From positions 1 to 64,000 of the forward strand of contig CADDZR010000006.1 of the NCBI GenBank assembly GCA_902812495.1: 64,000 bases of DNA. Direction: 5' to 3'. The stretch's first letter is position 1. Every line of letters begins with the position of its first letter. The notes under the pieces were generated by a model. The model had not been told where the DNA came from and ran no database searches. It was given only the letters and a program-made list of their open reading frames with translations. The translations under genes were made by a program, and so were the position numbers. This stretch comes from an archaeon (lineage in GTDB: Archaea; Thermoproteota; Nitrososphaeria; Nitrososphaerales; Gagatemarchaeaceae). This document shows, piece by piece, positions 2,092-45,847 of the stretch.

Positions 2092-2946
2092 TCATTGGAG
2101 GAGAGATGAGGCTTCGATTTCATGGTAGGCGTCGTAAATGATATTCTTGAGCTCTTGAAGTCTTTCAGACCTCTGCCCTGACTTTATTCTCCTTAGGTAT
2201 CTTTTCATTGTTTCGGTTCTTCTAGAGGAGAGAACCTTGGTGAAATATGCTACCTCCCTCAGCAGTTCTTCCAAAACTTCCATCGAGAAGGGGTTCCTGA
2301 ACTGGATTTGGGATACCAAGCCCTCGTCTTGATTTAGAACGCAAAGTGAGAGAGCAGTTTGCACTGAAGAAAATGGTGTACAGATTCTGAAAAATGCATT
2401 TGGTTTTGCATATTTTAAAACAAGGCTGGAGTAAGCTATGGAGACAGCATGGGTCAACGAAAGGACGTAAGCCATTGCTCTGTCATGATCGACACCATCC
2501 TTGAAAAAAACAAACTCCGCATCGGGGAAGATCCGATTCAAATTCATTCTTCCTCTCAATCCGACAACAGCTAGTTTCATTTTTCTGCCCTCCCTCAATG
2601 AAGGCCCAAAAAGAGGATGTATTGAACAAAGTTTGTAGCCCTTTAGCTTTGCTTGAATCAAAATCTTTTCCAAGATGCCAGACTTTACAGAAGTTATCTC
2701 GATAAGTGTCTTCCTTTCTCTTACGTATGGAAGGCGGGAAATAACCTTGAGAGTTTTTTCCATTGGAACCGCGACAAGAACTATTTCTGAGTTCTCCACT
2801 AGGCTGCTTAAGCTTCCTGCTTGTGTCATACCTTCAATTTCTCTTTTATTTAGATCATAGCCAAAGACATCGAAACCCTTCGAAACAAAATACCTGGCAA
2901 AGAAAGAACCCATGCTTCCTGACGAGCCTATTATCCCAACTTTCAA
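2092..2946 (-). CDS. tyrA: Prephenate/arogenate dehydrogenase (TyrA-like)
   Basis: This 284-aa NAD(P)-dependent dehydrogenase opens with a Rossmann nucleotide-binding motif, VGIIGSSGSMGSFF (residues 3-16). Later features match TyrA: VAVPMEKT, IEITSVKSG and CSIHPLFGPS (the family's conserved HPLFGP-type motif). It would oxidatively decarboxylate prephenate or arogenate on the route to tyrosine. It is the last gene of the aromatic operon and overlaps the chorismate mutase-aminotransferase gene by 4 bp (ATGA). That context favours a role directly after prephenate formation. Which of the two substrates it uses cannot be read from sequence alone; the linked aminotransferase makes arogenate plausible. 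Confidence 0.87.
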   Translation of the reverse strand: MKVGIIGSSGSMGSFFARYFVSKGFDVFGYDLNKREIEGMTQAGSLSSLVENSEIVLVAVPMEKTLKVISRLPYVRERKTLIEITSVKSGILEKILIQAKLKGYKLCSIHPLFGPSLREGRKMKLAVVGLRGRMNLNRIFPDAEFVFFKDGVDHDRAMAYVLSLTHAVSIAYSSLVLKYAKPNAFFRICTPFSSVQTALSLCVLNQDEGLVSQIQFRNPFSMEVLEELLREVAYFTKVLSSRRTETMKRYLRRIKSGQRSERLQELKNIIYDAYHEIEASSLLQ

Positions 2947-4334: not shown

Positions 4335-5434
4335 CGCCTCACCCCAAGCACAGGGGGTATGAAACCTGAGCGTATTGCATGATCTGCAAGAACAAGGGCA
4401 GTAACTGCTTCAACAACAGGCACAGCTCTTGGAACAACTGTTGGGTCATGTCTGCCTGGAACAATTATCTCTGTTTCTTCATGCTTCTCCAAGTCAACTG
4501 TTTGCTGTCTCTTTGCTATCGAAGCTGGAGGCTTGAAAGCAACTCTAAAGAGAATAGGCATTCCGTTCGATATTCCTCCAAGAATACCTCCTGAGTTGTT
4601 TGTCTTGCATACTATCTTCCCTCCCTCGATGCTGTATTCATCATTGTTTTCGCTACCCTTCATTCTTGCGGCACCAAAGCCTGAGCCAAACTCAATGCCC
4701 TTTACTGCTGGGATGGAAAGAGCTATTTTCGCAAGGTCTGAATCAAGAGAATCAAAAACAGGTTCTCCAAGACCAGCCGGGCAGTTAAGAACCACACATT
4801 CGACAATGCCTCCGAGGCTATCCCCCTCTCCCCTTGCCTGGACAATCTTTCTTTTCATCTCCTCAGCAGCTTTCTGCTCAGGAGCTCTTACCTCGTTGCA
4901 ATACCTGTTTTCCCTTGCCATTTCAACTGAGAAGTTTGAAGCCCTAACACCCCCTATTTCGAGCGAGTAGGCAATTATTTCAATGCCTAGTGTAGAGAGA
5001 AGCTTCTTTGCAACAGCACCTCCCATGACGTATGAGACTGTTATCCTACCTGAAAATCTACCACCTCCCCTGTAGTCGTTAAAACCACCGTACTTTTGCA
5101 ATGCTACAAGGTCTGCATGCCCCGGTCTAGGTTTGTTCTTGAGTAGCTCATACGGCCTAGAATCCTTGTCAGCATTTAAAACAAGCATCATGATAGGTGA
5201 ACCTGTTGTGTAACCATTAAATACACCTGACATTATCTCTACCCTATCCTCCTCCCTCCTCTGCGATGCTACAATTGACTGGCCTGGTTTTCTTAGGTCC
5301 AGTTCCTTCTGCACATCGCTCTCTGAAAGCTCAAGACCAGCAGGGCATCCGTCTATCACACAGCCAACACACTTTCCGTGGCTTTCACCAAAGCTCACAA
5401 GTACGAACCTCTCACCCACTATGTTACCCGTCAT
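4331..5434 (-). CDS. aroC: Chorismate synthase
   Basis: This 367-aa protein carries the family signatures GESHGKCVGCVIDGCPAG near the N-terminus, RPGHADLVALQKYG, DYRGGGRFSGRITV in the middle, and GRHDPTVVPRAVPVVEA near the end. It removes phosphate from EPSP to give chorismate and needs reduced flavin. Length is normal for the family. It overlaps aroA upstream and the mutase-aminotransferase gene downstream by 4 bp each. Confidence 0.96.
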   Translation of the reverse strand: MTGNIVGERFVLVSFGESHGKCVGCVIDGCPAGLELSESDVQKELDLRKPGQSIVASQRREEDRVEIMSGVFNGYTTGSPIMMLVLNADKDSRPYELLKNKPRPGHADLVALQKYGGFNDYRGGGRFSGRITVSYVMGGAVAKKLLSTLGIEIIAYSLEIGGVRASNFSVEMARENRYCNEVRAPEQKAAEEMKRKIVQARGEGDSLGGIVECVVLNCPAGLGEPVFDSLDSDLAKIALSIPAVKGIEFGSGFGAARMKGSENNDEYSIEGGKIVCKTNNSGGILGGISNGMPILFRVAFKPPASIAKRQQTVDLEKHEETEIIVPGRHDPTVVPRAVPVVEAVTALVLADHAIRSGFIPPVLGVRR

Positions 5435-6720
5435 ACTTGCCGAGTCACCACCCTAACACCAATCTTCTTCATATCAGAAAGGAAACCAGGATAGGATATT
5501 GAATCTATATTGCTGTATATAACGGATATCCCCTTGCTTATCAGGGATGCAACGAGGAAGGCCATGAATAGCCTGTGATCGCCGTGGGGGTCAAGAACAG
5601 CTTTCCTAATTTCTCTAGGAGGACGTATTGCCAAGCCATTTTCAAACTCCTTTACAATTGCACCTATCTTAGTAAGCTCCGAAGCTATTATGTGTATTCT
5701 GTCTGTCTCCTTAAACCTTGCATGTTTAACGCCCCTTATCTCAACACCTGAATCCGACCTCAGGGCAAGCACGGAAACAACAGGAAGGAGATCCGGACTA
5801 TCAGTCAGGTCAAGAGCACAGCCTCCAAGCTTACCTCCATCAGACATCACAACAACTGTATCTCTATTTGCCTTTATCTTAACACCCATCTTTGTCATCA
5901 CATCTATTATTGCGCTGTCCGCTTGCGGACATGAACTCTCAAGGTTGCCTATCTTTACTCTCCCACCAACCAGTGCGGATGCTGCAAGGAGGAAGGAGGA
6001 TGAACTGAAGTCTCCAGGTATCTTCATCCTGCATGCCCTGAAATCCTGGGGCCTTACTTCGAAGAATGCATAGCCATCCCTCTCAATCCTGATTCCAAAT
6101 TTATCAAGCACGTAAATTGTTGAATCTATGTAAGGACGTGAAACAGCGTCCTTAACCAAAAGTCTTACACCCTTTTCTGAAAGAGGGGACGAGATAAGTA
6201 TCGAGGATATGAATTGGGATGAGATCTGACCTTCGATCTCTGTCTCGCCTCCTCTCATACCTCCTCCTTTCACCACCAGGGGCGCGGATCCGTTTCCCCT
6301 TGTACTCCATACTTCAACACCCAGTTTCGATAGAGCAGATATAAGTGGCCCCATTGGTCTTTTCCTTATACTTTCATCGCCAGTAAGAACTGAAAAACCG
6401 GAGCTTGTACATCCCAGAATTGAAGTTGCTATCCTGAGTGTTGTTCCTGAATTCTCAACGTTGACCACATCATCTGGTGTTTCAGGTCTATCAACTCCAG
6501 AGATGGAAAGTAAATCCTTACTTTCCTCTATCCTAGCTCCAAACGCCCTGCAAACCCTCATCGTTGAGAGTGTATCACCTGAAGCGAGATACTCCTCTAT
6601 CCCTGAGTTGCCAGCCGCAAGAGAAGCTGCAAAGATAGCTCTGTGCGTATAGCTCTTGCTTGGAGACGCTATTACCTTTCCTTCCAAACTGTGTGGTGCT
6701 TCAAACCAAATGACATTCAA
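5431..6720 (-). CDS. aroA: 3-phosphoshikimate 1-carboxyvinyltransferase (EPSP synthase)
   Basis: This 429-aa EPSP synthase transfers enolpyruvate from PEP to shikimate-3-phosphate. Recognisable stretches are ASPSKSYTHRAIFAASLA (N-terminal substrate lysine region), NSGTTLRIATSILG, GDESIRKRPMGPL, KETDRI and DPHGDHRLFMAF. It is the usual length. It lies between the shikimate kinase and chorismate synthase genes with 4-bp overlaps on both sides, matching pathway order. Confidence 0.96.
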   Translation of the reverse strand: MNVIWFEAPHSLEGKVIASPSKSYTHRAIFAASLAAGNSGIEEYLASGDTLSTMRVCRAFGARIEESKDLLSISGVDRPETPDDVVNVENSGTTLRIATSILGCTSSGFSVLTGDESIRKRPMGPLISALSKLGVEVWSTRGNGSAPLVVKGGGMRGGETEIEGQISSQFISSILISSPLSEKGVRLLVKDAVSRPYIDSTIYVLDKFGIRIERDGYAFFEVRPQDFRACRMKIPGDFSSSSFLLAASALVGGRVKIGNLESSCPQADSAIIDVMTKMGVKIKANRDTVVVMSDGGKLGGCALDLTDSPDLLPVVSVLALRSDSGVEIRGVKHARFKETDRIHIIASELTKIGAIVKEFENGLAIRPPREIRKAVLDPHGDHRLFMAFLVASLISKGISVIYSNIDSISYPGFLSDMKKIGVRVVTRQV

Positions 6721-7589
6721 TTCTCAAGAGCACTCCTCGAATTCGAGGTTGTCTGTATAACTACAAAGCCTAGTTCTCTGTACTTTAAAGCAAACAGAGT
6801 AGCACTTTCCTCTTCTCTGAAGACGGAAGCTATAGCAGGCCCAGTTCCTGAAAGACCAGAACCGAGCGCTCCTGAAGCTAACGCATCAACTGCAACACTA
6901 TCTTTGTATCCCATTATTGCCGAGTAAAGCAACCCATTTAATGTCATCGCGTGCCAGAATTTCCTTGAAACAACAAGAGAGTATATTGAATCTGCAACGG
7001 AGCTGAGATGCCTATTTCTTGATTTCAAGAGGGCAAACCTTCTGCTCCTTATCCTAGGTATGCATATCACAACGTTAAACCTACCAACCTTCTGCGATAG
7101 GATTATCTTTCTTTTCTTGTTATCAGTAACGTTCAGACCACCGAGAAGGCATGATGCTGCATCATCATAAGCACCCGTTATGCTTACACCAGATGACAAT
7201 GAAGCATCGGCACAGGCTGAGAGTATCTTAGATGGTTTGCAATCTTTGAAACCAAGTGCATCTAGGATAGCAAGAATACACGCAAGTGATGCTGAAGAAG
7301 AGCTCTTTAATCCAACACCAACAGGTATGTTTGATTCAAGGTATATTTTTCCTGAGAATTTCCTTTCTTTCTCCCCTGCTAGACGGAGAGCAAGAAGTGA
7401 GGAGAAGACCACAAGTTGTGAGTTGTAGCTATTCCCGTTGAGGAATGCCTCCCATTTGCCTGGACGTGATTCGACCTCCGCCCTTGCCCTAGTGTACAGG
7501 GAGGTAGAGAGCGTTGCTCCTTTCCCAGTTAGCACTGCATTCATTATAGTAATAGCCCCATAGCAGTTTGCACTTCCTTCTATGGTCAA
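6717..7589 (-). CDS. Archaeal shikimate kinase (GHMP family)
   Basis: This 290-aa protein belongs to the GHMP kinase superfamily, which supplies shikimate kinase in archaea instead of the bacterial AroK fold. The glycine/serine-rich ATP loop is IPVGVGLKSSSSAS (residues 88-101). Further GHMP features are SITGAYDDAASCLLGG and the C-terminal GALGSGLSGTGPAIASVF. It would phosphorylate shikimate at the 3-position. Its place between aroE and aroA supports shikimate rather than homoserine or mevalonate as substrate. Confidence 0.92.
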   Translation of the reverse strand: MTIEGSANCYGAITIMNAVLTGKGATLSTSLYTRARAEVESRPGKWEAFLNGNSYNSQLVVFSSLLALRLAGEKERKFSGKIYLESNIPVGVGLKSSSSASLACILAILDALGFKDCKPSKILSACADASLSSGVSITGAYDDAASCLLGGLNVTDNKKRKIILSQKVGRFNVVICIPRIRSRRFALLKSRNRHLSSVADSIYSLVVSRKFWHAMTLNGLLYSAIMGYKDSVAVDALASGALGSGLSGTGPAIASVFREEESATLFALKYRELGFVVIQTTSNSRSALEN

Positions 7590-8401
7590 GTTAGATTCAA
7601 CCTCTCCTTAAGCTTCCTTTCCATGACTTTTTTTGGGGCTTCTCTGCCGGTGAATAATGAGAATGCTTTTACAGCCTGATGGAGAAGCATTCTGTGGCCG
7701 TAGACGACTTCTACCCCCTGCTTCCTTGCTTCCATGACAAGCTCTGTCTCAACAGGGAAATAGACGGCGTCAAAAAACACATCTGTCTTGGCTACAGCCT
7801 TTAGGAGGGTTCTGGGAGTGGGTATACCAATGCTTCCAACAGGTGTTCCGTTGAACAGGACATCAAAGTGTCCTCGAATATCTTCGTAACCTGAAAAGGT
7901 AATCCTGATCCCTGTGTTGTTTAAATTGGGAAACGAGATCCGCGCTGTCCCCTTATCTCTGGAGAGTACTGTAGCATTTTCACACCCAATTATGTGGCAT
8001 GCGTACAGAAAAGCACGTGAAGCCCCACCTGAGCCCATTACACAGACATTTTTCGCAGACTTGATACTTGATTCTTTTAGAGAATTTAGGACGCCGTCAA
8101 CGTCCGTGTTGAAGGCAAGTAGCTTTCCTCGACTCCTAACAACTGTGTTCAAAGCAAGCAGTGCTTTTACAGCATCATCTCTAGGTTCAGCAAACCTCGC
8201 TAAAGGAATCTTAAACGGCATCGTAACATTGCATCCAGCAACCTTAGCCTCGGTGATACTTTTAATTGCCTCCTCTACGCTCGTCGCAATACAGTTCTCG
8301 TACACGGCGTCGATTTTAAGATTGGAGAAGGCTGCGTTCATCATAGCAGCTGTAGGTGAGTTCCGAATCCTTGACCCGACAAGCCTGTAAAGAAGTGTCA
8401 T
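7586..8401 (-). CDS. aroE: Shikimate dehydrogenase
   Basis: This 271-aa NADP-dependent reductase converts 3-dehydroshikimate to shikimate. Substrate-site residues are visible: NSPTAAMMNAAF, NVTMPFKIPL with catalytic-type K64, and FNTDVDG with D100. The dinucleotide-binding loop is VMGSGGASRAFLYA, and the C-terminal region has YGHRMLLHQAVKAFSLFTG. 4-bp overlaps join it to aroD upstream and shikimate kinase downstream. Confidence 0.95.
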   Translation of the reverse strand: MTLLYRLVGSRIRNSPTAAMMNAAFSNLKIDAVYENCIATSVEEAIKSITEAKVAGCNVTMPFKIPLARFAEPRDDAVKALLALNTVVRSRGKLLAFNTDVDGVLNSLKESSIKSAKNVCVMGSGGASRAFLYACHIIGCENATVLSRDKGTARISFPNLNNTGIRITFSGYEDIRGHFDVLFNGTPVGSIGIPTPRTLLKAVAKTDVFFDAVYFPVETELVMEARKQGVEVVYGHRMLLHQAVKAFSLFTGREAPKKVMERKLKERLNLT

Positions 8402-9021
8402 GTTATCATTTCCCTGATTTCAAGAGCTGTCTTCAGGTCTGGCTGCCCTTCAGCAACCTCCTCACCAGGCAGGCATGAGTAGATGAGTGGAGAGCCAAGC
8501 CTTGCAGAGAGGAATCTTGAGAGAATTCCATGCTTTCCCATACAGAATGCTATCAAAGGATGCGAGAATATCCTGTACAGCCTAAGGACTCTGAGATTAT
8601 CCTCGAGCACCACCGCTTTAGTCACTACCTTGGGGATACCGTAAGCTGATGCATCACGTACAAGCCTTTCGAGATATTCTGTCTCTGGTGTTCTTTCATA
8701 ATCATGCCACGAAGCAATAAACCTCCACTTCCTCATACTTGTTTGTTCGTGCAGAACACGAAGTGATTCTACAGGAAGGTCGAAATATGCTGGTGAACAG
8801 CGCTCCAGCAGCCTTTCAAATGCGTCCTCAATGCCGAGCTTTAAGATGGACACACGCATCAGGTGCCCTATTTCCCTGACAACTTCTGACTCATCGTAAC
8901 TGCGAAGCATATCGAGCCTGAACTCAACCAGGTCCGCTCCCTGGCCTACTGCTCTTTTTGCCTTCCGAACCATCTGTGCGATGCTTGCTCCAGCCACGGT
9001 GACACAGACCTTTGCCCTCAT
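8398..9021 (-). CDS. aroD: 3-dehydroquinate dehydratase, type I
   Basis: This 207-aa class I dehydroquinase forms a Schiff base with 3-dehydroquinate. Visible active-site elements are ADLVEFRLDML (substrate EFRxD), FIASWHDYERTP with general-acid/base H106, and VVTKAVV with the expected Schiff-base K135. The end shows GSPLIYSCL. It is slightly short for the family, as usual in archaea, but complete. Overlaps of 4 bp place it in one transcript with the DHQ synthase II gene and aroE. Confidence 0.93.
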   Translation of the reverse strand: MRAKVCVTVAGASIAQMVRKAKRAVGQGADLVEFRLDMLRSYDESEVVREIGHLMRVSILKLGIEDAFERLLERCSPAYFDLPVESLRVLHEQTSMRKWRFIASWHDYERTPETEYLERLVRDASAYGIPKVVTKAVVLEDNLRVLRLYRIFSHPLIAFCMGKHGILSRFLSARLGSPLIYSCLPGEEVAEGQPDLKTALEIREMIT

Positions 9022-9989
9022 CTCTCTACCATGAATTCCTGATATGAAAGGCCGATGTGTCTGCCCTTTGACTCAGTAACATGAACAAGCAAGGTATCAC
9101 CTTCTTTAAGGGATGTAACCGAGACAGGAACTCCGCTAGATGAGACAAGCCTCACTGTTTCAGCCCTCTGCAAAACCACACTTCCGGTATTGCACCCAAC
9201 AGACGCATTAACGAGAATCATAGGCCTTCTCTCTATCTTTACCCTCCCTACGGTAACCTGCCTTGTTCTCCCCTCCTTGCTAACTAAGAGAACCCTGCTA
9301 CCGGCTGCAAGCTCCGAAAGGTATTTTGTAGAGTCAGATCCGCAGAGAACGTAGCTGTGTAATGCGCCGGCGTTAACCCTGAATGGTCTGGTTGGAACAA
9401 AGCTATTCTCAACAGTCTCTGAATGAACAAGGAAGAAGAAGTTGGAAAAACTTCCCACAAGGAGACCTTCTCCAATAGATAGCATAGATGTTGTGTCAAC
9501 ACAAACCCTCTCCCCCTCCCCAGCATCCTGCACACCTAGCACCTCTGCCTCCTTCAGCTCAATCGTACAGCCTTCCCTCTTCTGAAGTGTAGAAACAGCA
9601 CTTGGTGCAAGTTGAGGAGCTACGACAACTCCGTCAACACCTCTTTCGAGAATAGAAAAACAGTACTGCAGGTCTTTTTCGTCATCAACATACATATAGA
9701 GGTGCTTGCCAATTGAAGTAAGGTAAGCAATCAGGTTCTCTATAGGAATTACCTTCCAGCTCTTACACCTAACTATGAAGCTATCGAAGGACAGGTCAAG
9801 CCTGCTAATTATTTCCTGCATCTTATCCGTTTCAGATATGGAAATTGTAAAGAAATTGGCTACCTCAAGCTGATTCAATCCATTTAGTTTATCCGTTTTT
9901 TCCTTAACAAGTGCGCTTATTCTGCTGGAATTTCCTATCCCCTCGGGCAACTCGATAGACTCTGTACAGTCAACTATTACCTTCTTCAT
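9018..9989 (-). CDS. 3-dehydroquinate synthase II (archaeal type, AroB')
   Basis: The product converts the ADTH-synthase product to 3-dehydroquinate by oxidative deamination and cyclisation, the second step of the archaeal pathway. The gene encodes 323 aa from the ATG at 9989. That start is preferred over one 24 nt upstream because it sits 1 nt after the previous gene's stop and follows a GGAGGT element within that gene's last codons. Family-like segments include GVDGVVVAPQLAPSA, ERVCVDTTSML, EGLLVGSFSNFFFLVHSE, PFRVNAGALHSYV, and the C-terminal GDTLLVHVTESKGRHIG. It has no relation to bacterial AroB. Confidence 0.92.
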   Translation of the reverse strand: MKKVIVDCTESIELPEGIGNSSRISALVKEKTDKLNGLNQLEVANFFTISISETDKMQEIISRLDLSFDSFIVRCKSWKVIPIENLIAYLTSIGKHLYMYVDDEKDLQYCFSILERGVDGVVVAPQLAPSAVSTLQKREGCTIELKEAEVLGVQDAGEGERVCVDTTSMLSIGEGLLVGSFSNFFFLVHSETVENSFVPTRPFRVNAGALHSYVLCGSDSTKYLSELAAGSRVLLVSKEGRTRQVTVGRVKIERRPMILVNASVGCNTGSVVLQRAETVRLVSSSGVPVSVTSLKEGDTLLVHVTESKGRHIGLSYQEFMVER

Positions 9990-9990
9990 T

Positions 9991-10773
9991 TTAATGAAGA
10001 ACCTCCATTGCATTCTCTACCCCCATGCCATCTATGACAATTCTCTTCAAGGCAGCAACTATTTTCCCAGGTTCTTTGTGCTGGAATACATTCCTCCCGA
10101 ATGTAACGCCTATGGCACCTGCATCCAACGCACTCTTAGCAAGTAAAAGAAGATCCATATCTGATTCAAACTTCGGGCCCCCAGCTAGAACTACAGGAGC
10201 AGGGCATTTCCTCACAACGTCCCTGAATGTTTCAGTACTTCCTGTGTAGACAGTCTTTACTATGTCGGCACCAGCCTCCGCCCCGGCCCTTGCCACGTGA
10301 GCTACTGTATCTGCGGATAACGGCTCTTTTAGAAACTCCCCCCTTGGGTACATCATTGCAATCAGAGGGACCTGATACATATCACACTTATCTGCAACAT
10401 CTCCAAGGAAGGAAAGCATCTCCTGCTCATAGCTAGAACCCATGTTCACATGCACAGAAACAGCATCGGCCCCAAGCCTAAGAGCTTCCTCGACCGATGT
10501 TATCCTTACCTTTCTTTCATTCGAGGGAACTAGGGATGTACTTCCGTTCAGGTGTATAATCATACCCAATTGGTACACAGCCTTCAGATGAATCGCAGTG
10601 CCCTTGTGGAATAAGACAGCTGTGGCACCTGCATCAGATACCTGCTGTATAATGCTTTCCGCTGATTCTAAACCCATGACAGGGCCAAGTGTTAGCGAGT
10701 GGTCCATTGGGATACAAAGCATCCTTCCGTGCTTTGTTATTCTTGAAAACCTGACTTGCTTGCCTGAAACCAT
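9991..10773 (-). CDS. 2-amino-3,7-dideoxy-D-threo-hept-6-ulosonate (ADTH) synthase, AroA'
   Basis: This 260-aa class I aldolase-like TIM barrel condenses aspartate semialdehyde with a deoxyketohexose-phosphate to start archaeal aromatic biosynthesis. The visible catalytic set is D24 (IPMDHSLTLGP), Y142 (AMMYPRGE) and K173 (ADIVKTVYTGS), the residues expected for Schiff-base chemistry in this family. The phosphate-binding end is VVLAGGPK and IGVTFGRNVFQ. It sits right behind asd, whose product is its substrate, with a 2-bp gap. Confidence 0.94.
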   Translation of the reverse strand: MVSGKQVRFSRITKHGRMLCIPMDHSLTLGPVMGLESAESIIQQVSDAGATAVLFHKGTAIHLKAVYQLGMIIHLNGSTSLVPSNERKVRITSVEEALRLGADAVSVHVNMGSSYEQEMLSFLGDVADKCDMYQVPLIAMMYPRGEFLKEPLSADTVAHVARAGAEAGADIVKTVYTGSTETFRDVVRKCPAPVVLAGGPKFESDMDLLLLAKSALDAGAIGVTFGRNVFQHKEPGKIVAALKRIVIDGMGVENAMEVLH

Positions 10774-10775
10774 AG

Positions 10776-11837
10776 TTAAACACCGATATAGCCTAGCTTC
10801 TCGGCAAGCTCTGTAACAAGTATTGCATTTCCTGCCGCTCCACGAATTGTGTTGTGAGAGAGAAGGGTGAACAGTAATGAATTTCTGTCAGGACCCTTCC
10901 TTATTCTTCCAACAACGACAGACATGCCTGGAACTGTGCCAGCCATCCTATCAAGTCTCGGCTGCGGCCTATCTGGCTCCCTTCTAACTATAATTGGTTG
11001 TATGGGGGCTGAAGGAAGCTTGAGCTTCTGAGGAAGAGAAGAAAAGCTTGAAAGCTCTCTTTCAACTTGCTGCTCGTCTATTCTCTTCTTTGTTACTAAA
11101 AATACTGATTCCATGTGTCCGTCGAGAACAGAGACCCTGTTGCATGATGCAGCTATCTTAATTTTCCTTTCTTCAATTTTGTTTGATGATAATCTTCCAA
11201 GTATCTTTCTTGTCTCAACTGCAACCTTCTCCTCCTCATCTTTTATGTACGGTATGACATTTTCAACAATCGAAAGAGAAGGAACACCAGGAAAACCAGC
11301 ACCAGAAAGGGCTTGCATTGTTGTAACCACAACCTCCTTCACAAAAAATGAATCGTCAATTGGCTTAAGTGCAATGGCAAGTCCTGTTACTGTGCAGTTT
11401 GGTGTTGTAACTAGAGAGCCTTTCCAACCTCTCTCTTTCCTCTGAGCCTTTATAAGCTCGAGGTGCTGGTGGTTTACTTCAGGGATAATTAGGGGAACAT
11501 CTTCCTCCATCCTGTGCGCACTTGCCTCGCTAACAACGAAGAAACCTGAGTGTGCAAAGTCCTTTTCTAATTTCCTCGCAGCCTCTGAGGGAAGAGCTGA
11601 GAAAATAACGTCGCAACCCCTAGCGTTTTTTACTGATGTTTCCATAACTTCCATCTCTGCAAACCTTTCAGGAATCTGGCCGTTTCCAATCCATGTTACA
11701 GCTTCTGAATATTTCTTGCCAGCTGAGCTGAGCCCCATGAGGGAAACGATTTCTATGCTTGGATGGTTCTCAAGAAGCATAAGGTATCTTTGTCCTACTG
11801 CACCTGTTGCACCAAGGATGGCAGCCTTTATCTTCAT
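10776..11837 (-). CDS. asd: Aspartate-semialdehyde dehydrogenase
   Basis: This 353-aa dehydrogenase reduces aspartyl phosphate to aspartate semialdehyde. It begins with the nucleotide motif AAILGATGAVGQRYL, has the catalytic cysteine C148 in SLVTTPNCTVTG and the acid/base H241 in VSVLDGHMESV. It has the archaeal/fungal-type length. In this operon the semialdehyde feeds ADTH synthase, encoded next, and presumably also threonine/methionine and lysine pathways elsewhere. A 4-bp overlap couples it to lysC. Confidence 0.95.
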   Translation of the reverse strand: MKIKAAILGATGAVGQRYLMLLENHPSIEIVSLMGLSSAGKKYSEAVTWIGNGQIPERFAEMEVMETSVKNARGCDVIFSALPSEAARKLEKDFAHSGFFVVSEASAHRMEEDVPLIIPEVNHQHLELIKAQRKERGWKGSLVTTPNCTVTGLAIALKPIDDSFFVKEVVVTTMQALSGAGFPGVPSLSIVENVIPYIKDEEEKVAVETRKILGRLSSNKIEERKIKIAASCNRVSVLDGHMESVFLVTKKRIDEQQVERELSSFSSLPQKLKLPSAPIQPIIVRREPDRPQPRLDRMAGTVPGMSVVVGRIRKGPDRNSLLFTLLSHNTIRGAAGNAILVTELAEKLGYIGV

Positions 11838-13045
11838 CCTACCTCACCAAGAGCTTGCTTTATCATTTCTGCTGCATCCCTAGACCTTGAGGAAGATACA
11901 AATAATCTGATGGACGAGAAGATTGTCACTATACCGAGTATGTTTATTTTGTTTCTTGCAAGAGGCTGTGTTATCCTCTGGATGAGACCTGGTTTTGTCT
12001 CGAGCGACTTCCCTTTCACTGTTATCATAGCCACATCCCCAAAGGAAGAGATTGCCTTTGCAATTCCTTTTGGCACAAGAGATGAGTGCACTTCGCCTTC
12101 TATTCCCTCGACATCAGTGCAGTAAACTATTACAGTATTTTCAAGCTGGGATACAGAGACTACCTTTCCACCTTTTTTAGACACTATGCCACCAATCTTC
12201 ATTATTGCTTGATATGCGTCCCCTTTACCAAGAATAACTGTCAGCATCTTGATCTTCTCCTTTTCTACGGAGACTTCCAGCTCAGGAATCTCTCCCTCTA
12301 TGACGGTACCTGAGTCGAGGTTTTCGATGTTTGTAACCCTTATCCTTGTACCTGAGTTCGCATACCTTAGAGCCTTTGAGTGGAGGAACTTTGCCCCGGA
12401 ATATGCAAGCATACCTGCTTCAGATGCCTGAAGCCTACCTATGAGAACGGGATCTTCTATTAAGTCTGGGTCGCTTGAATACACTCCATTAACGTCCTTA
12501 ACTAAGACTACCTCTTTCGCATTGAGGCAGCTACCTAGTATTACAGCTGTTGTATCGCTGCCTCCCCTTCCAAGAGTTGTAATCCTGCCATCTTTCGTAA
12601 CACCGAGAAAGCCACAAACCACAGGCACTAAACCTCTTTTCAAAAGTGGGATAATCCTCTTTCTTGCTTCATTTCTCGTAAGCTCCATATCTGGATTTGC
12701 GTCCTGATGATTGGAGTCTGTAATTATTGGCCAGTGTTTCGAACCTGGTTCTATCACTATACTCTTTATTCCTGACCTCTCAAGAGAGGAGCAAAGATTC
12801 CTTGCAGTCATTCTCTCGCCTGTTGAGAGAAGTTCATCTAGAAAAGAAGGGTCTATTCCACCGTTGACCTGTTTTGCAAGTGTTAGAATTTGGTCTGTAA
12901 CACCCTTCATTGCGGACACAACCACAACAACCTTCCTTCCCTTTCTAACCGTCTCGGCTATAATCCTGCATACCTTTTCAACTGAACTCTGGCTCTCTAA
13001 AACTGAGCCACCAAATTTCAAAACAACTATAGAGTCTTGATCCAT
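11834..13045 (-). CDS. lysC: Aspartate kinase with C-terminal ACT region
   Basis: This 403-aa kinase phosphorylates aspartate and starts the operon. The amino-acid kinase domain shows VVLKFGGSV (residues 7-15), LLSTGERMTARNL, TLGRGGSDTTAV and LVKDVNGVYSSDP. Residues from about 255 form tandem ACT-like regulatory domains (MLTVILGKGDAYQAIMKIGG, VAMITVKGKSLETKPGL, NILGIVTIFSSIRLFVS). These suggest feedback control by an amino acid, but the effector is not readable. Being first in an aromatic operon, it may be a pathway-dedicated isozyme. A symmetrical element lies 26-88 nt upstream of the ATG. Confidence 0.94.
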   Translation of the reverse strand: MDQDSIVVLKFGGSVLESQSSVEKVCRIIAETVRKGRKVVVVVSAMKGVTDQILTLAKQVNGGIDPSFLDELLSTGERMTARNLCSSLERSGIKSIVIEPGSKHWPIITDSNHQDANPDMELTRNEARKRIIPLLKRGLVPVVCGFLGVTKDGRITTLGRGGSDTTAVILGSCLNAKEVVLVKDVNGVYSSDPDLIEDPVLIGRLQASEAGMLAYSGAKFLHSKALRYANSGTRIRVTNIENLDSGTVIEGEIPELEVSVEKEKIKMLTVILGKGDAYQAIMKIGGIVSKKGGKVVSVSQLENTVIVYCTDVEGIEGEVHSSLVPKGIAKAISSFGDVAMITVKGKSLETKPGLIQRITQPLARNKINILGIVTIFSSIRLFVSSSRSRDAAEMIKQALGEVG

Positions 13046-39764: not shown

Positions 39765-40367
39765 ATGTGGTCTCAGATTCTCATAGCTGTATCTATGGCA
39801 GTAGCAGGTGTTTCGGATATAAGGGAAAGATCAGTTCATGATATTGCATGGTTCCCAGCTGCAGTTGGAATTATATACATTCTAATATTCAGAAACGACC
39901 TTCTCTTAAGCGTAGCACTAAAGGTAGCAATCATAGGGGGGATAGCCATTGGCTTCACACTCTACGGCGCACTGGGTCAGGCTGATGCCATAGCACTTGT
40001 TGTTCTTGCTTTCGACCCGTATCTTATCTCACCCCTTCTGATTTTTGTTGCAGCAGCTTCTGTAGCCCTTATGCATATAGCATACATATTTATTTCCAAG
40101 AAAGGTGGGACGAAGGTTATAACTATCGAGCAATTCAAGATGGAAGAACACTGGATACCACGAGCAATAATTGTCTCTGGGAAGAAGGTAGTGGTAAACA
40201 AGGACGTTAACAAAGCAAGGGAAGAGGTCCTTCAGCAAGCCAGTGAAGATACATTGGTCGAGGTTACTTACGGTGTGCCTACAGTTGCGTACCTTGCGGC
40301 TGGATATGTATCATATCTAGTCTATCTAGCTTTGTTTAATTACAGCACTTTTCTCTCCCTACCTTAA
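39765..40367 (+). CDS. Archaeal prepilin peptidase (A24, PibD/ArlK-like)
   Basis: A 200-aa membrane aspartyl protease. The two catalytic aspartates are D18 in VSDIRERSVHD, near the N-terminus, and D74 in ALGQADAIAL, the position of the GxGD motif. Hydrophobic helices flank both, and a 60-residue soluble insert (KKGGTKVITIEQFKMEEHW) lies before the last helix. It would cut the class III leaders of the two pilins encoded nearby. Divergent from the platform gene. Confidence 0.9.
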   Translation: MWSQILIAVSMAVAGVSDIRERSVHDIAWFPAAVGIIYILIFRNDLLLSVALKVAIIGGIAIGFTLYGALGQADAIALVVLAFDPYLISPLLIFVAAASVALMHIAYIFISKKGGTKVITIEQFKMEEHWIPRAIIVSGKKVVVNKDVNKAREEVLQQASEDTLVEVTYGVPTVAYLAAGYVSYLVYLALFNYSTFLSLP

Positions 40368-40368
40368 G

Positions 40369-40941
40369 ATGGTTTTCGTAGTGCTAGAAGGTTTCTCAGG
40401 CTCTGGAAAGACAACGGTAGCAAAACTGCTCTCTAGAAATGGATGGAAGGCAATTACGGAATCAGCGCATTCTGTTCCTGAAACAGTGCAACTTGCGGAT
40501 AGGGGGGATACATATTCTGACTACTCCCTTCTGGGTGCGACACTTCTCTCAACCTACGAAATAGCGCACTCTAGGAAGAGTATGAATATAGTTGCAGAGG
40601 GTTATTTCATTTCCGATCTCGCGTACGCAAGAATAAGGTATGAAAAGGGCCTGAGCAATGCCTATCCTCTCCTCAAGGACTTTGTTTTTTCTCTGCTTGA
40701 GGATAGGAGCCTTCTGCCTGATATCTTCGTAGTTCTCGAGGCAAGTAAAGAAACATTACAGTCAAGACAGAGCCTCAAGAGTGAGAGAGACAAAAACTTA
40801 AGCAGCTACTTCATGGAGAGGTACTACAAGTTAGTATACTCTTTTCATAGAGGGATGGGACACGTTTTTACAAAGCTCAGTACAGAAGAAAGAGAAGAAG
40901 AAACAGCAGAAAAGATAGTGGATATGGTAGAAAAGCTATGA
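40369..40941 (+). CDS. P-loop nucleoside/nucleotide kinase-like protein
   Basis: A 190-aa kinase-like protein with Walker A EGFSGSGKTTVAKLL (residues 7-21). DRG-like residues ADRGDTYSDYS, and SERDKNLSSYFMERYYK in a lid-like segment, resemble thymidylate kinase/deoxynucleoside kinase proteins. Substrate not inferable. It follows the prepilin peptidase gene after 1 bp and overlaps the inositol-phosphatase-like gene by 4 bp. Confidence 0.72.
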   Translation: MVFVVLEGFSGSGKTTVAKLLSRNGWKAITESAHSVPETVQLADRGDTYSDYSLLGATLLSTYEIAHSRKSMNIVAEGYFISDLAYARIRYEKGLSNAYPLLKDFVFSLLEDRSLLPDIFVVLEASKETLQSRQSLKSERDKNLSSYFMERYYKLVYSFHRGMGHVFTKLSTEEREEETAEKIVDMVEKL

Positions 40942-41759
40942 ACTGGAAGGGAATACTTAGAGAAGCATGCGAAAAGGCAGCAATTTCGGTAGGCTCTCTT
41001 GGCGAAAGAGGGAAGGAATACGTCGCAACAAGTCCTTCAGGAGACAGGACACTTCTTGCCGACTCCATTTCTGAAAAGGCAATAATGGATGTACTCTCCT
41101 CTGCTTCAGATATTTCTTTCGTCTCAGAGGAGTCAGGCAAAGTAGGTAACTATAAAACAAGGTACACCGCCCTAATAGACCCTATCGACGGCTCCTCAAA
41201 CTATAGAAGAGGCATACCTTTCTATTGTATGGCTGTGGCTATCTTTGACAATGAGAGAGGTGAGGTTGAGGCTGCAGCTGTTCTTGACCCTGTCAGGTAT
41301 ATTTTTTACTTCGCAGACAGAAACGGGAATGCAACAAAGAACGATAGAACCATTAAGCCATCTACAAAGCATGAGGTTGAGAGGTCTGTAATAGGTATCG
41401 ACATCAACAGGATTGGGACTGAGTGTATTCGAGGCCTTTCACGGCTCTTGATCTCAGTAGGCAGGATGGTACATCTCGGAGCCAATGCACTCGAATTGTG
41501 CTATGTTGCTGACGGGACAATAGACGGTTTTGTTGACGTTAGAAAGATGCTCCGGCCTACTGACATAGCTGCATCATGCTTCATAGTTGAAAGGGCTGGA
41601 GGAATTGTCTCAGACGAATCAGGTAAGAGTCTCAATATACCTTTAAGTGCTGTCGAGAGGCTTTCGGTCGTAGCATCTTGTACAAAGCCATTACATAAAA
41701 AAGTTATTTCACTTCTGCGAAATTCAGAACCTCTTCAAGCTTTTCAAGGCGATAGGTAG
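40938..41759 (+). CDS. Inositol monophosphatase / archaeal FBPase family phosphatase
   Basis: A 273-aa Mg-dependent Li-sensitive-type phosphatase. The metal motif DPIDGSSN is at 81-88 (ALIDPIDGSSNYRRGIPFY), with E64-E65 in SEESGK as the first metal site, and DGFVDVRKMLRPTDIAASCF as the C-terminal one. Such archaeal enzymes act on inositol phosphate and/or fructose 1,6-bisphosphate. Its 3' end overlaps the convergent HAD gene by 56 bp. Confidence 0.87.
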   Translation: MNWKGILREACEKAAISVGSLGERGKEYVATSPSGDRTLLADSISEKAIMDVLSSASDISFVSEESGKVGNYKTRYTALIDPIDGSSNYRRGIPFYCMAVAIFDNERGEVEAAAVLDPVRYIFYFADRNGNATKNDRTIKPSTKHEVERSVIGIDINRIGTECIRGLSRLLISVGRMVHLGANALELCYVADGTIDGFVDVRKMLRPTDIAASCFIVERAGGIVSDESGKSLNIPLSAVERLSVVASCTKPLHKKVISLLRNSEPLQAFQGDR

Positions 41760-42288
41760 GAGCTATACCCCTGTAGGTCCAGACAACTGCAACGTCAAGC
41801 TCTATTTCATTTGCAGCAACTACATCTGTTTCTCTGTCTCCAATGAATAGAATTTTATCTTTCGTCTCTCCTGAAATCTTAATTGCTTGCTCCAGCTGCT
41901 TTCTCCTGCTCAGGGAAAACTCTCTTGTTATGACTGACCTGAATATATCAAGAATATTCCTCGAGGAAAGAAGCATGGTGCAAAACTTTATCCCCTGCAT
42001 TGTAACAAGGGAAAGCCCTGCAATCTTTGAGAGTTTTTTTAGCAACTCTGTAGAATTTTCCAGCTCTTCAGAATTTTTAACAGCTTCTGTCTCATGTCTG
42101 TCTATTATGGCAAAGGCTTTTTCTAAAACTAACCTATCCTTTATCTTCTCTAGTTGAGGAAAAAGGAAGATCTTTTCCGATAGGGAAATACCAATTGAAG
42201 AGAGTTCCTTCCTAACCAACTTCCAGTCAACGTTTACCCTGAAAAGTGTGCCGTCCAGATCAAAAATAAAATGTCTGTACTTTCTCAT
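41704..42288 (-). CDS. HAD-superfamily phosphatase
   Basis: A 194-aa HAD hydrolase. Motif I is FDLDGTLF near the N-terminus, motif II SLVTMQG, and motif IV ILFIGDRETDVVAANEI. It resembles phosphoglycolate phosphatase-type enzymes; the substrate is unknown. ATG 42288 is chosen because it makes an ATGA overlap with the ATP-grasp gene, against an alternative 18 nt upstream. Confidence 0.85.
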   Translation of the reverse strand: MRKYRHFIFDLDGTLFRVNVDWKLVRKELSSIGISLSEKIFLFPQLEKIKDRLVLEKAFAIIDRHETEAVKNSEELENSTELLKKLSKIAGLSLVTMQGIKFCTMLLSSRNILDIFRSVITREFSLSRRKQLEQAIKISGETKDKILFIGDRETDVVAANEIELDVAVVWTYRGIAPTYRLEKLEEVLNFAEVK

Positions 42289-43370
42289 ACAACCCTCTCT
42301 TTCCATCCGTCCTCTCTGTAAAGTATCACGCCTGAATCCATGTTCCTAATCATGTAGTAACCTGCGGGTATAAGGTCAAACTCAGGTATGCTTTCACGGA
42401 CCTCTTCTCCCAGTCCGATTCTGACGTAGAGGTCAGATATATTGGAATACCAAGGCATTCCGAGGTGCTTGTAGGCTGCATAACCCCATAATGGCATTGT
42501 AGTATGGAACTTGCCAGCGTCAACCTCTGTTACACATGGTCTTCCGGATGCATCTTCTTTTATGTCGACGCTGAACGCACCGCTAGCATCTCTGGCTATT
42601 GCTAATACTGATTTAATTGCAACTTTGTTCACCTGTGCATCGTGGATGGTTCGGGACACTGACGGTGTTCCTGTAATGCCTGACGGCGAAATATGCTTGA
42701 AAGGATACTCTATTCTTTCTCTTGAGTAGGATGTAACAAGCTTGCCTTTGACCCACAGACTGTCCCACGCTATGTTCCTCCCGGGCAAGTATTCCTGAAG
42801 CATGAATTCATCCAGCTCTGTGCCTCTCCTTGTCCATAGGCTTATCCAGTCCCTAGCTTCCTGCCAGGAGTTGCAAAGAAGGCTGAGCCTCCCTCCAGCT
42901 CCATGCCTTGCTCTAACCCATACCTTTCCCCCTATCTTTTTGAAGGCTGATTCAACTTCTTCTATATCCTTCAAAGTTTCCGTCCTTGCAACAGGAACGC
43001 CTTTTCGCTCCAGTATCTTCTGTGTTTCCATTTTATCCTGACCCCTTAGCATTGTACTGTAGTCTGGAAGGAATACTCTAGAAGGGAGTTTTTCTCTCTC
43101 CCTAGAGAGAACAAGTGCCTCACTTGAAGGCTGGGGATGTATAAACAGGGCACCTTCCTTCTTTGCTATCGTGGAAACCCTTTTAACAAAGGAAGGGTCG
43201 TCATGTCTTGGTGTGAGGTACCTTGCGTCGAGGTCTGGAAGATGGATGTAGTATTTGCTGTAGTCGCTTCCAACTATTCTGTAATTTCTTTCTGATGCCC
43301 TGAGCGCCCTGACGAAATTTACACCTGCGACTCCCCCTGCTCCGGTGACAAAGATTGTCTTGCGTTTCAC
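42285..43370 (-). CDS. ATP-grasp ligase-like protein
   Basis: A 361-aa protein with a pre-ATP-grasp Rossmann-like domain (TIFVTGAGGVAGVNFVRAL) and an ATP-grasp core. Core signs are KMETQKILERKGVPVARTET, KVWVRARHGAGGRLSL, DEFMLQEYLPGRNIAWDSLW, and AFSVDIKED...PCVTEVDAGKF as metal/ATP ligands. It would join an amine or other nucleophile to a carboxylate with ATP, in the CarB/PylC-like group. 4-bp overlaps couple it to the deacetylase and HAD genes. Confidence 0.82.
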   Translation of the reverse strand: MKRKTIFVTGAGGVAGVNFVRALRASERNYRIVGSDYSKYYIHLPDLDARYLTPRHDDPSFVKRVSTIAKKEGALFIHPQPSSEALVLSREREKLPSRVFLPDYSTMLRGQDKMETQKILERKGVPVARTETLKDIEEVESAFKKIGGKVWVRARHGAGGRLSLLCNSWQEARDWISLWTRRGTELDEFMLQEYLPGRNIAWDSLWVKGKLVTSYSRERIEYPFKHISPSGITGTPSVSRTIHDAQVNKVAIKSVLAIARDASGAFSVDIKEDASGRPCVTEVDAGKFHTTMPLWGYAAYKHLGMPWYSNISDLYVRIGLGEEVRESIPEFDLIPAGYYMIRNMDSGVILYREDGWKERVV

Positions 43371-44584
43371 TCGAAGCTTGCCTCCGCTACCTTAGATGTG
43401 CAAAAGAGGCGAATAAAATTCTCACTTCTTTCTATATATCCTCCTGCAACCCTTCCTATCTTTTTGTTTGATGTTAGCCTAAGTGTCAGGCCAATTTCTG
43501 CATCTTCAACTCTGACCCTGTCTTTCTGAAGGTACAGCCTTGCTTTCCTTCTCCTTTTCCACCATCGAGCAACATTGCCTGCATTCGAAACGTAAGCATT
43601 ATCTTGCTTTAACATGTCAAGGATTCTTGGATATATCCTTCCACCTCTCATCCTCAGAGACTCTGTGTGCCAGAGTATCGTGAACAGACCTCCGACAGAA
43701 CGAACCCTTTCCTTCATCTCAACAACGTCCCTTAAACCATGCGCCTCATCCCTCTTTAGATAACCCCAGAGTGTTGTGTCCATAAGAACGAGCGGGAGCT
43801 CCATGATTTTCATCATCTTCCATTCTTTATCTGGAGGATGGAAGGGTGTGCAGATACCTATCCTGAAACCCAATTTGTTTGTGTTACCAACTGTACTGTC
43901 GTATGAAATCAGATTCCTCTCAGCTATACCCCATGTTTTGTCAAAATCAAATTTTAGGTAGTGCTCCCTCAGTCCTTCTGGCCTGAATCCAAGTTCAGAA
44001 ACAAACCTTCGAATGTCCTCTGCCAGCAAATTTTCACTGTCATGTGTTCCTTCTCCACCGTGAAGGCCAAACTCCCAGCCTAGATACCTAAGCCTTTTTA
44101 CCTCATTTGCAATGTTCCCGAGGCTGTAGTTAGATGTTAGAAGGAAAAAAGTAGACCTTACGCCCAGCTTTCTCTCTATGTTTGCTGCGTACCCTATGTT
44201 TTTGTAGAGTGACCTTAGACCAACAACATGGAGAAATAAGTCCCATGGTCTGAACCTGTTCCTTATTCTAATTATATGTTTCAGAGGTCTTTCTATATTG
44301 TCGACGTCGTGTGTTAGAGCAACAGCGTATTCAGACCCGTTTGGCCACCTCTCCTTGAACGCAGAGACACCAAAGGAAGAAAGCATCAGTCCTTCCATTT
44401 CTTCCGAAAACTTGCTAAGCTGCTTTTCGACAGTAGGAGTTAGCGGATCTTCTGGTTCATCTCCTCTTACAGCAGATTCTACTTCTCTTATTATGCTTCC
44501 AGGTATCCTGTCCACACTAATTATGCCAACAGGAAGTCCGAGGCTCTCCTCTACGAATGATGCAACATACTCTTCCCTGCCCAT
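43367..44584 (-). CDS. Polysaccharide deacetylase-like protein
   Basis: A 405-aa protein with a NodB-like barrel. The first metal motif is ALTHDVDN (THDVD, 91-95). LGWEFGLHGGEGTHDSE supplies the paired-His HGGxxH region, RPEGLREHYLKFDF follows, and ILWHTESLR closes the site. The C-terminal 80 residues are basic (RWWKRRRKARL). It probably deacetylates an amino sugar in a surface glycan. Encoded between the membrane-tethered kinase-like gene and the ATP-grasp gene, with overlap or abutment. Confidence 0.85.
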   Translation of the reverse strand: MGREEYVASFVEESLGLPVGIISVDRIPGSIIREVESAVRGDEPEDPLTPTVEKQLSKFSEEMEGLMLSSFGVSAFKERWPNGSEYAVALTHDVDNIERPLKHIIRIRNRFRPWDLFLHVVGLRSLYKNIGYAANIERKLGVRSTFFLLTSNYSLGNIANEVKRLRYLGWEFGLHGGEGTHDSENLLAEDIRRFVSELGFRPEGLREHYLKFDFDKTWGIAERNLISYDSTVGNTNKLGFRIGICTPFHPPDKEWKMMKIMELPLVLMDTTLWGYLKRDEAHGLRDVVEMKERVRSVGGLFTILWHTESLRMRGGRIYPRILDMLKQDNAYVSNAGNVARWWKRRRKARLYLQKDRVRVEDAEIGLTLRLTSNKKIGRVAGGYIERSENFIRLFCTSKVAEASFE

Positions 44585-45508
44585 TCATCGCACCTCCGGA
44601 AAAAATTTTGAAAGGATGGATTCCAAGTCTGATTCGACCTCTTTCTTTTCCCTAGAGGTGTTTATCACCGGATAGGAAAATTTCCTTGCTATTTCCAGAT
44701 ACATCTGCCTTTCCTTTGAAAGTATCACTTCTGTGTACCTAATATGTTCTGGTCTTTTTTTAATTACTTCTATTGAGCGTGATACGGGAACATCGAGAAC
44801 CACTGCATATCTTGGCCTGAACATCATGTAAAAGAGGCGAAGTGGCTTAACTGGATATCCTAGAGCCTCGTATTTTATATACGTACTCCAGATAAACCTG
44901 TCATATATTACAACCCTGCCCTCTAGACCAGAACCAAAAGATGTTGCCAGAAGGAAAATTATATTGTCTATTAGGGATGCAAGTGGACGGAAGGGGTTCC
45001 CACCCCGCTTTGGGGTGAGAGTCTTGCCTGATTCCTTCTTTCTGGACAGCCTCTCCACAAATATGTACTTGTGGAACTGTTCGAGTCTTGTGAAGTACCC
45101 CCTTCCTCTGAGCCATTCCTCACTCCAGATCGAGTGTGTTGTTTTACCACTTCCATCTATGCCCAGGAATACAAGTGACCCACCCCTTCTACCTTTAAGA
45201 AGCGAGTCAAACGCCCTCCTTTGGTATTCATCATTGAGCAGTATCGCACCCAAGAAGAAGAAAAAAGCAAGGGAGATGGAAAGAAATTCTTTTTTGTAAA
45301 AAAGTACACCCGAAATAGAAGCAAGCAATATCCTAAGTGAATTTGGGACTTCGTTAAGGAGTTTTCTTGAATTTACATGGCTTTTCAGGATGCCGTAAAC
45401 TAGATGGATGAAGAAAAAAGTAATGGGGATAAGAAACTGGTTAGAGGTAAGGTATGCGAGTAAGTAAGAAAGTAACGAGCAGGTGGCTGCTATTATCTTT
45501 GTCCTCAA
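44585..45508 (-). CDS. Membrane-tethered thymidylate kinase-like protein
   Basis: A 307-aa protein with hydrophobic helices in residues 5-40 and 57-92, followed by a P-loop kinase domain: SLVFLGIDGSGKTTHSIW (P-loop 117-124), then VIYDRFIWSTYIKYEAL and AVVLDVPVSRSIEVIKKRPEH, as in thymidylate kinase. The fusion of membrane helices to a nucleotide-kinase-like domain is unusual. It may phosphorylate a lipid- or surface-linked precursor. The start is TTG 45508. Confidence 0.8.
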   Translation of the reverse strand: MRTKIIAATCSLLSYLLAYLTSNQFLIPITFFFIHLVYGILKSHVNSRKLLNEVPNSLRILLASISGVLFYKKEFLSISLAFFFFLGAILLNDEYQRRAFDSLLKGRRGGSLVFLGIDGSGKTTHSIWSEEWLRGRGYFTRLEQFHKYIFVERLSRKKESGKTLTPKRGGNPFRPLASLIDNIIFLLATSFGSGLEGRVVIYDRFIWSTYIKYEALGYPVKPLRLFYMMFRPRYAVVLDVPVSRSIEVIKKRPEHIRYTEVILSKERQMYLEIARKFSYPVINTSREKKEVESDLESILSKFFPEVR

Positions 45509-45541: not shown

Positions 45542-45847
45542 TTATTTGTTCTGGGAAGAGCTCTCCTCTTTCTTTTCTTGCTGAGTTTCCGGTTCTGTCA
45601 ATGGCTCCGGAGGAGGTGTTGTAGCCATGGTATAACCTATCCAAGCAAGGATTCCAAGCACAAGTGCAACTGCGATAAACATTGTGACCCTTATAGTTAT
45701 TTCCCAGGCATATATCATCAGAAGGGCGTAGATTACTATACCTGCTATGCTCGCACCAAATATTCCACTACCAACTGCCTTGTCGCTTGCCAATCCACTC
45801 AACAACCACTCTTTTGGGGCCGATATAACAGTTATGGGAGAAAACAA
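45542..45847 (-). CDS. Small two-helix membrane protein, unknown
   Basis: Up to 101 aa with hydrophobic stretches at about 24-46 and 53-75, and an acidic/Pro-rich tail (PPPEPLTEPETQ, EKKEESSSQNK). The TTG at 45847 lies only about 8-17 nt after an AT-rich TTTAATATAA, so translation may begin further downstream. Family not recognised. Confidence 0.6.
   Translation of the reverse strand: MFSPITVISAPKEWLLSGLASDKAVGSGIFGASIAGIVIYALLMIYAWEITIRVTMFIAVALVLGILAWIGYTMATTPPPEPLTEPETQQEKKEESSSQNK

Follow-up and report, generated by a model that had tools for sequence, protein, structure and literature searches.

A conserved deacetylase, ATP-grasp ligase and phosphatase gene block of Thermoproteota as a candidate sugar-modification module for surface glycans

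The window analysed here is a stretch of 64,000 nucleotides from an archaeon of the Gagatemarchaeaceae (assembly GCA_902812495.1, contig CADDZR010000006.1), whose 1.34 Mb genome (64 contigs, completeness 94.9%) has Nitrososphaerales metagenome-assembled genomes (MAGs), Candidatus Gagatemarchaeum among them, as its nearest named relatives. On the minus strand of the window lie genes for a CE4-like deacetylase (DEAC), an ATP-grasp ligase (GRASP) and a HAD-superfamily phosphatase (HAD), preceded by a gene for a TMK-like P-loop kinase. DEAC-GRASP-HAD plus the accessory TMK-like kinase is the conserved unit of this locus, and I propose, with a probability of about one half, that DEAC, GRASP and HAD act together in the cytoplasm to modify a sugar of a surface glycan, most likely an AglB-dependent N-glycan. 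The evidence consists of the families and folds of the proteins, their conserved residues, the co-inheritance of their genes, the glycan-gene context in relatives and the presence in the genome of candidates for most genes of a 3-acetamido-sugar route; from it I infer the substrates, the order of the steps and the N-glycan as destination. The four genes directly follow one another between 45508 and 41704, with a 4 bp overlap between DEAC and GRASP and a 22 bp overlap between GRASP and HAD:

44585..45508, minus strand: TMK-like P-loop kinase, 307 aa (PF02223, 2.4e-9; hydropathy; adjacency at family level)
43367..44584, minus strand: CE4-like deacetylase DEAC, 405 aa (VimE family NF053580, 4.1e-12; predicted fold)
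44300..44311, minus strand: DEAC motif H92-D93-V94-D95 (His and Asp residues conserved in 34/34 sequences; aligned to TFDVD of 3rxz)
42285..43370, minus strand: predicted ATP-grasp carboxylate-amine ligase GRASP, 361 aa (PRK12767, 3.4e-18; RimK and LysX matches; predicted fold)
42504..42527, minus strand: GRASP candidate Mg/substrate motif E282-V-D284-A-G-K287-F-H289 (residue conservation; N284, R287 and F289 in most DEAC-less relatives)
41704..42306, minus strand: HAD-superfamily phosphatase HAD, 200 aa (PF13419, 2.9e-8; motifs FDLDGT and GDRETD)

Recurrence of the block in Thermoproteota

Outside the family only DEAC-GRASP-HAD stays together, and this block recurs through Nitrososphaeria and other Thermoproteota. 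DEAC was found in 26 of 101 close genomes, and around these 26 hits the order DEAC-GRASP-HAD, often extended by the TMK-like gene, is kept within the family and also across further families of its order; within the family, identity is 60-67% for GRASP, about 45% for DEAC and about 35% for HAD. GRASP turned up in 58 of 398 sampled Thermoproteota genomes, DEAC in 33 and both in 14 (an overlap counted by hand from tables), against 4.8 genomes expected by chance, and the two genes are neighbours in all 14. Moreover, pairwise distances among DEAC sequences track those among GRASP sequences, with r = 0.76 (reached in 0/2000 permutations). The first-pass annotation had singled out a trio at 42285-45508. 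Its DEAC/GRASP pair is indeed conserved, but the unit is a quartet, from which HAD (41704..42306) had been omitted.

Named genomes gave no match to the single DEAC sequence used as query, and loci in them were found by a GRASP alignment search. HAD lies directly downstream of GRASP in 44 of these 55 named loci and DEAC adjoins GRASP in 37, at times divergently, as in Nitrosopelagicus. The named carriers of GRASP include marine group I thaumarchaea, Methanodesulfokora, Guaymas Thermoprotei, Bathyarchaeota and Methanomethylicota, as well as Vulcanisaeta, a Pyrobaculum MAG and a Micrarchaeota MAG. In Vulcanisaeta and Pyrobaculum, an unannotated gene of about 290 codons precedes GRASP-HAD in the place of the deacetylase (L109:695-1573, L121:608-1486, L129:636-1505); its product has no Pfam match and, judged by eye, could be a beta-propeller. 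A 3.1 kb contig labelled Phycisphaerae bacterium (L076, VGXN01000121.1) also carries archaeal DEAC, GRASP and HAD genes at 50% identity. Its GRASP branches among the thaumarchaeal sequences of the GRASP tree, and the contig is probably a mis-binned archaeal one.

Predicted activities of the encoded proteins

The Pfam match of DEAC is weak (0.0087) and its sole NCBIfam match is VimE, the putative UDP-2,3-diacetamido-2,3-dideoxy-glucuronate deacetylase (NF053580, 45.4 bits, residues 170-321), at a score below the equivalog cut-off of 440 bits, so that DEAC does not qualify as a member of that family. The same family is matched by 31 of 34 DEAC relatives, with no other family matched. The AlphaFold model of DEAC (pLDDT 95) resembles CE4 enzymes, namely 3rxz, which is the best match, PuuE, HP0310 and ArnD. 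A search of the PDB with the single sequence gave no match, and one with a DEAC profile retrieved 3rxz and chitin deacetylases. Eight residues (H92, D93, D95, H175, R206, H208, D229 and H306) are invariant in all 34 sequences and form a candidate metal-binding and catalytic set, in agreement with the expectation of the first-pass annotation that a genuine deacetylase should retain its metal ligands; H181, present in 21 of 34, is not universal. The modelled NodB-like fold and the conserved Asp and His residues together argue for a CE4 enzyme.

GRASP scores under the cut-off with the Pfam ATP-grasp family (1.7e-4) and is recognized by PRK12767, RimK and LysX. Its AlphaFold model (pLDDT 94) matches the CPS-like ATP-grasp protein 2pn1, the L-amino-acid ligases 3vot, 4wd3 and 3wo1, and PylC. 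K113, D269 and E282 are invariant across 48 GRASP sequences, while position 284 is D or N. In its model, GRASP thus combines an ATP-grasp fold with a lysine and a Mg-binding acidic motif, and it is predicted to be a carboxylate-amine ligase. HAD, for its part, matches PF13419 and carries the motifs FDLDGT and GDRETD; the HAD profile used for relatives was built from sequences similar to the window gene and may accept other HAD proteins. No hydrophobic segment was found by hydropathy in DEAC, GRASP or HAD, so that all three probably reside in the cytoplasm.

The TMK-like protein, by the same procedure, displays two N-terminal hydrophobic segments, at 23-43 and 73-93. It scores 36.8 bits with TIGR00041, below the cut-off of 83.25 that defines thymidylate kinase, and a separate, stronger thymidylate kinase gene is present in the genome (G000:C1:105810), so that the TMK-like gene was rejected as the housekeeping thymidylate kinase. 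The TMK-like gene adjoins the module in most same-family relatives and is conserved in that family only: this membrane-tethered kinase is a family-specific accessory of the module.

Glycan context and a proposed pathway

Glycan genes often lie around the module in relatives. Within four genes of GRASP at 17 loci, Pfam matches comprised glycosyltransferases (GT) of families GT4/GT1 (7) and GT2 (6), UDP-sugar dehydrogenase (4), DUF354 (3), STT3/AglB (2), GPT (2) and DegT (2); at five to eight positions from GRASP there were about two GT matches and none to UDP-sugar dehydrogenase, DUF354, STT3/AglB, GPT or DegT among the matches listed, and epimerases occurred in both sets, the samples so compared being small and non-independent. 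The gene order on a complete Bathyarchaeota chromosome (L105) is AglB, GPT, GRASP, DUF354, UDP-sugar dehydrogenase, and in the Micrarchaeota locus (L113) DegT and GFO/IDH genes precede GRASP while GPT, HAD and AglB genes face it. Many loci of the family itself have, no farther than about 3 kb from GRASP, a gene for a Wzx-like flippase some 500 aa long, and in same-family relatives genes of the GT2 or GT4 families are found close to this flippase-like gene and to the module. The first-pass annotation had counted the occurrence of its trio beside unrelated genes in relatives as evidence against its surface-polymer pathway; this is not the situation in the relatives as a whole, though it holds at some loci devoid of glycan neighbours. 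In a Nitrososphaera MAG, an asparagine-synthase-like gene follows GRASP at a locus without DEAC (L097:11070-12254), and its product could be an amidotransferase for the carboxamide sugar reported for the Nitrososphaera N-glycan.

In the genome of the window, the corresponding genes are scattered. Contig C16 holds an orthologue of the flippase gene side by side with a GT2-like gene, contig C12 a DegT gene with a GT2 gene, contig C1 an AglB gene, and contig C4 genes for GPT, a hexapeptide transferase, a GFO/IDH protein, a 371-aa protein and DUF354. The C4 GFO/IDH gene, adjoining that of the hexapeptide transferase, has UDP-GlcNAc 3-dehydrogenase as its best family (3.6e-79). GFO/IDH, DegT and hexapeptide transferase kinds are all represented, none of them reaching an equivalog cut-off. 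Because these genes are present, albeit dispersed over C4 and C12, a 3-acetamido-sugar (Wbp-type) route that could feed a VimE-like enzyme seems to be largely present in this genome, as judged from family matches. The 371-aa protein encoded between GFO/IDH and DUF354 (C4:8449-9564, also L155:8449-9564), a candidate C6 dehydrogenase, has no Pfam or NCBIfam match and could be a divergent UDP-sugar dehydrogenase. The first-pass annotation had concluded from the lack of a local glycosyltransferase that a polymer must be made elsewhere: GT2, GPT, DegT and AglB genes are indeed elsewhere in the genome, but a polymer is not required, and what is modified is likely to be a sugar residue in an N-glycan or a comparable oligosaccharide.

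The proposed pathway combines two bacterial precedents. In Porphyromonas gingivalis, VimE has been proposed to free an amine on a diacetamido-uronic sugar, to which VimA would add serine or glycine (PMC7468200). In Campylobacter, an ATP-grasp domain couples serinol-phosphate or ethanolamine-phosphate to glucuronic acid, after which the phosphate is cleaved off by a HAD phosphatase (PMC11800397, PMC11800379). By analogy, the Wbp-type route would supply a 2,3-diacetamido sugar, which is probably a uronic acid, and from its nucleotide- or lipid-linked form DEAC would strip a single N-acetyl group, leaving a free amine. GRASP would then activate a carboxylate with ATP, in the simplest case that of an amino acid or phospho-amino acid, and join it to this amine by an amide bond, while HAD would take a phosphate off the ligated group or its donor. 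A glycosyltransferase, a flippase and a transfer enzyme encoded elsewhere would finally put the finished glycan on surface proteins; the membrane-tethered TMK-like kinase may phosphorylate the donor or a carrier. The sugar needed is known in the same wider group, since the N-glycan of Nitrososphaera viennensis is made up of a di-N-acetyl hexosamine, a di-N-acetyl hexuronic acid and, in addition, four residues that are proposed to be the carboxamide of the latter, without reported amino-acid substitution (PMC12153357), a parallel that concerns the sugar and not carriage of the module by that species. The amide chemistry suggested by the first-pass annotation for the ATP-grasp protein and the deacetylase therefore holds in outline, given the conserved pair, VimE as the closest curated family of DEAC and the glycan neighbours in relatives; it is plausible, and the support for it has grown since it was put forward.

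Several observations weigh against this reading. The relation of DEAC to VimE is remote (45 bits, for a cut-off of 440). Nineteen of the 398 sampled Thermoproteota genomes (G238, G255 and G259 among them) have a DEAC-like gene and no GRASP, and 44 have GRASP and no DEAC, HAD mostly still being there; because of these 44 genomes, GRASP is not always dependent on DEAC. The window itself has no adjacent glycan gene, housekeeping genes are the neighbours in some relatives (L075, L095, L104), and a C6-oxidizing UDP-sugar dehydrogenase was not confirmed in the genome. Finally, a difference between GRASP active sites is confounded by ancestry. GRASPs accompanied by DEAC mostly carry D203, P223, S228, D284, K287, H289 and W295, and nine without DEAC carry H (in one case Q), I, A, N, R, F and F at these positions. 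The nine form one deep clade in the GRASP tree, with which the difference coincides, so that it may reflect ancestry instead of choice of partner; it was dropped as proof of DEAC-specific acceptors and is suggestive only.

The remaining genes of the locus do not belong to the module. All six open reading frames (ORFs) of the first-pass annotation were found at their coordinates, and their family assignments are right, some being weak by sequence alone, but the tight group and single pathway into which they had been gathered did not survive. The cluster consists of two convergent transcription units, and the plus-strand unit (39765-41759), made of a prepilin-peptidase-like gene, the P-loop kinase gene and the inositol-phosphatase-like gene (IMPase), is syntenic with the module within the family only. 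A part of the latter two genes in the pathway is thus not supported, and neither is the relevance of the pilus genes: these and EF-1A show synteny at the level of the family, and their functional tie to the module was rejected.

40938..41759, plus strand: inositol-monophosphatase/FBPase-like gene, outside the module (PF00459, 3.7e-31; NF009321, 4.9e-67)
40369..40941, plus strand: P-loop kinase, outside the module (PF01712, 2.5e-6)
45542..45847, minus strand: small membrane protein, 101 aa, upstream of the TMK-like gene; its membership of the module is uncertain

The small membrane protein has no family match, in Pfam or otherwise, and is kept in a few same-family relatives. Elsewhere in the window, positions 2092-13045 hold a shikimate/aromatic amino-acid operon plus an aspartokinase-type gene. 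The operon encodes 3-dehydroquinate synthase II, shikimate dehydrogenase, EPSP synthase, chorismate synthase, a chorismate mutase-aminotransferase and prephenate dehydrogenase, together with a GHMP kinase that likely serves as shikimate kinase.

Alternatives and known systems

A different chemistry on the same kind of sugar has to be considered. GRASP could use the C6 carboxylate of a uronic acid and link it to a phosphorylated amine such as ethanolamine-phosphate, serinol-phosphate or phosphoserine; HAD would then dephosphorylate the product, and DEAC would modify the same residue independently, at a second place. Cj1438C and Cj1435 carry out such a ligation and dephosphorylation (PMC11800397, PMC11800379), and many Bathyarchaeia and other lineages have GRASP-HAD but no DEAC, with UDP-sugar dehydrogenases alongside. 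On the other hand, Cj1438C is described as TupA-like whereas the best matches of GRASP are other ATP-grasp families, DEAC adjoins GRASP in every sampled genome that has both, and GRASPs found with DEAC differ in their active-site set from the main DEAC-less clade. I regard such a uronamide as unlikely, though deserving attention. Rather less credit is given to the idea that the deacetylation and amide ligation are as proposed while the product is an exopolymer, a glycolipid head group or a protein-anchoring linking sugar. The last has a precedent in VimE/VimA of type IX secretion (PMC7468200), a Wzx-like flippase gene adjoins the module in relatives, and the AglB of the genome weakly matches the archaeosortase-associated STT3 family (8.9e-21; 73.9 bits, cut-off 450); AglB and GPT genes nevertheless lie near GRASP on the Bathyarchaeota chromosome and near the GRASP/HAD locus of Micrarchaeota, and the sugars needed occur in Nitrososphaera N-glycans (PMC12153357). 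That the module serves a small metabolite or cofactor and has glycan neighbours by chance, as the pilus, EF-1A and phosphatase genes next to it in the window, the several loci with no glycan gene nearby and the many small-molecule ligases among the fold matches might suggest, is improbable in view of the enrichment of glycosyltransferase, AglB, GPT, DegT and UDP-sugar dehydrogenase genes near GRASP across distant lineages and of VimE as the only family matched by DEAC.

If DEAC, GRASP and HAD do modify a sugar of a surface glycan, candidate genes can be named for the decoration of surface glycans with amino acids or amides in archaea, the deacetylate-then-acylate logic of bacterial protein-anchoring sugars extends to archaea, and testable enzymes become available from lineages that are widespread and for the most part uncultured, with marine group I and Nitrosopelagicus among them. 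A broader generalization is more tentative, and I would not yet bet on it: that ATP-grasp and HAD enzymes, often with a VimE-like deacetylase, constitute a new, Thermoproteota-wide archaeal route to amide-linked amino-acid N-glycans or protein-linking sugars, in which a ligase replaces the bacterial transferase. The open-licence papers found on archaeal N-glycosylation do not mention ATP-grasp, and the open-licence literature yielded nothing useful on ATP-grasp with polysaccharide deacetylase in archaea or on the Methanococcus threonine gene. As far as I could find, deacetylation followed by amidation is known for bacterial surface glycans and has no archaeal gene assignment in the literature.

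GRASP shares its fold with LysX, RimK, PylC and the L-amino-acid ligases, families that carry out carboxylate-amine ligation, but identity to the L-amino-acid ligases and PylC is 13-17% over the fold, and these have other substrates and another gene context. The N-glycans of Methanococcus also bear an amino acid on a uronic sugar and have GlcNAc3NAcA as second sugar, but there threonine is attached at position 6 of ManNAcA, by an enzyme that was unidentified at the time of a 2010 review (PMC2952790). The capsule glucuronamide system of Campylobacter jejuni resembles the archaeal module in pairing an ATP-grasp amide ligase with a HAD phosphatase on a surface sugar, and this pairing in glycan loci is found here. 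Unlike GRASP, Cj1438C is TupA-like, a family absent among the Pfam and NCBIfam matches listed for GRASP, carries a fused GT2 domain and works on GlcA of a growing chain, at its C6 carboxylate; the Campylobacter system, moreover, has no deacetylase. Such an enzyme is provided by the Wbp/Vim pathway of Porphyromonas gingivalis and Tannerella forsythia, with a CE4-type deacetylase of the same broad family as DEAC, a proposed 2,3-diacetamido-uronic substrate and an amino acid that would subsequently be placed on the freed amine (PMC7468200), and the genome of the window has counterparts in kind to WbpB (GFO/IDH), WbpE (DegT) and WbpD (hexapeptide transferase). No GNAT/FemAB (VimA-like) family appears among the Pfam and NCBIfam matches of the cluster genes, no genome-wide search having been made. 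The archaeon would thus use an ATP-grasp ligase and a HAD phosphatase in place of the GNAT/FemAB-like VimA, and in an AglB/GPT context instead of the lipopolysaccharide and type IX secretion context of the bacteria.

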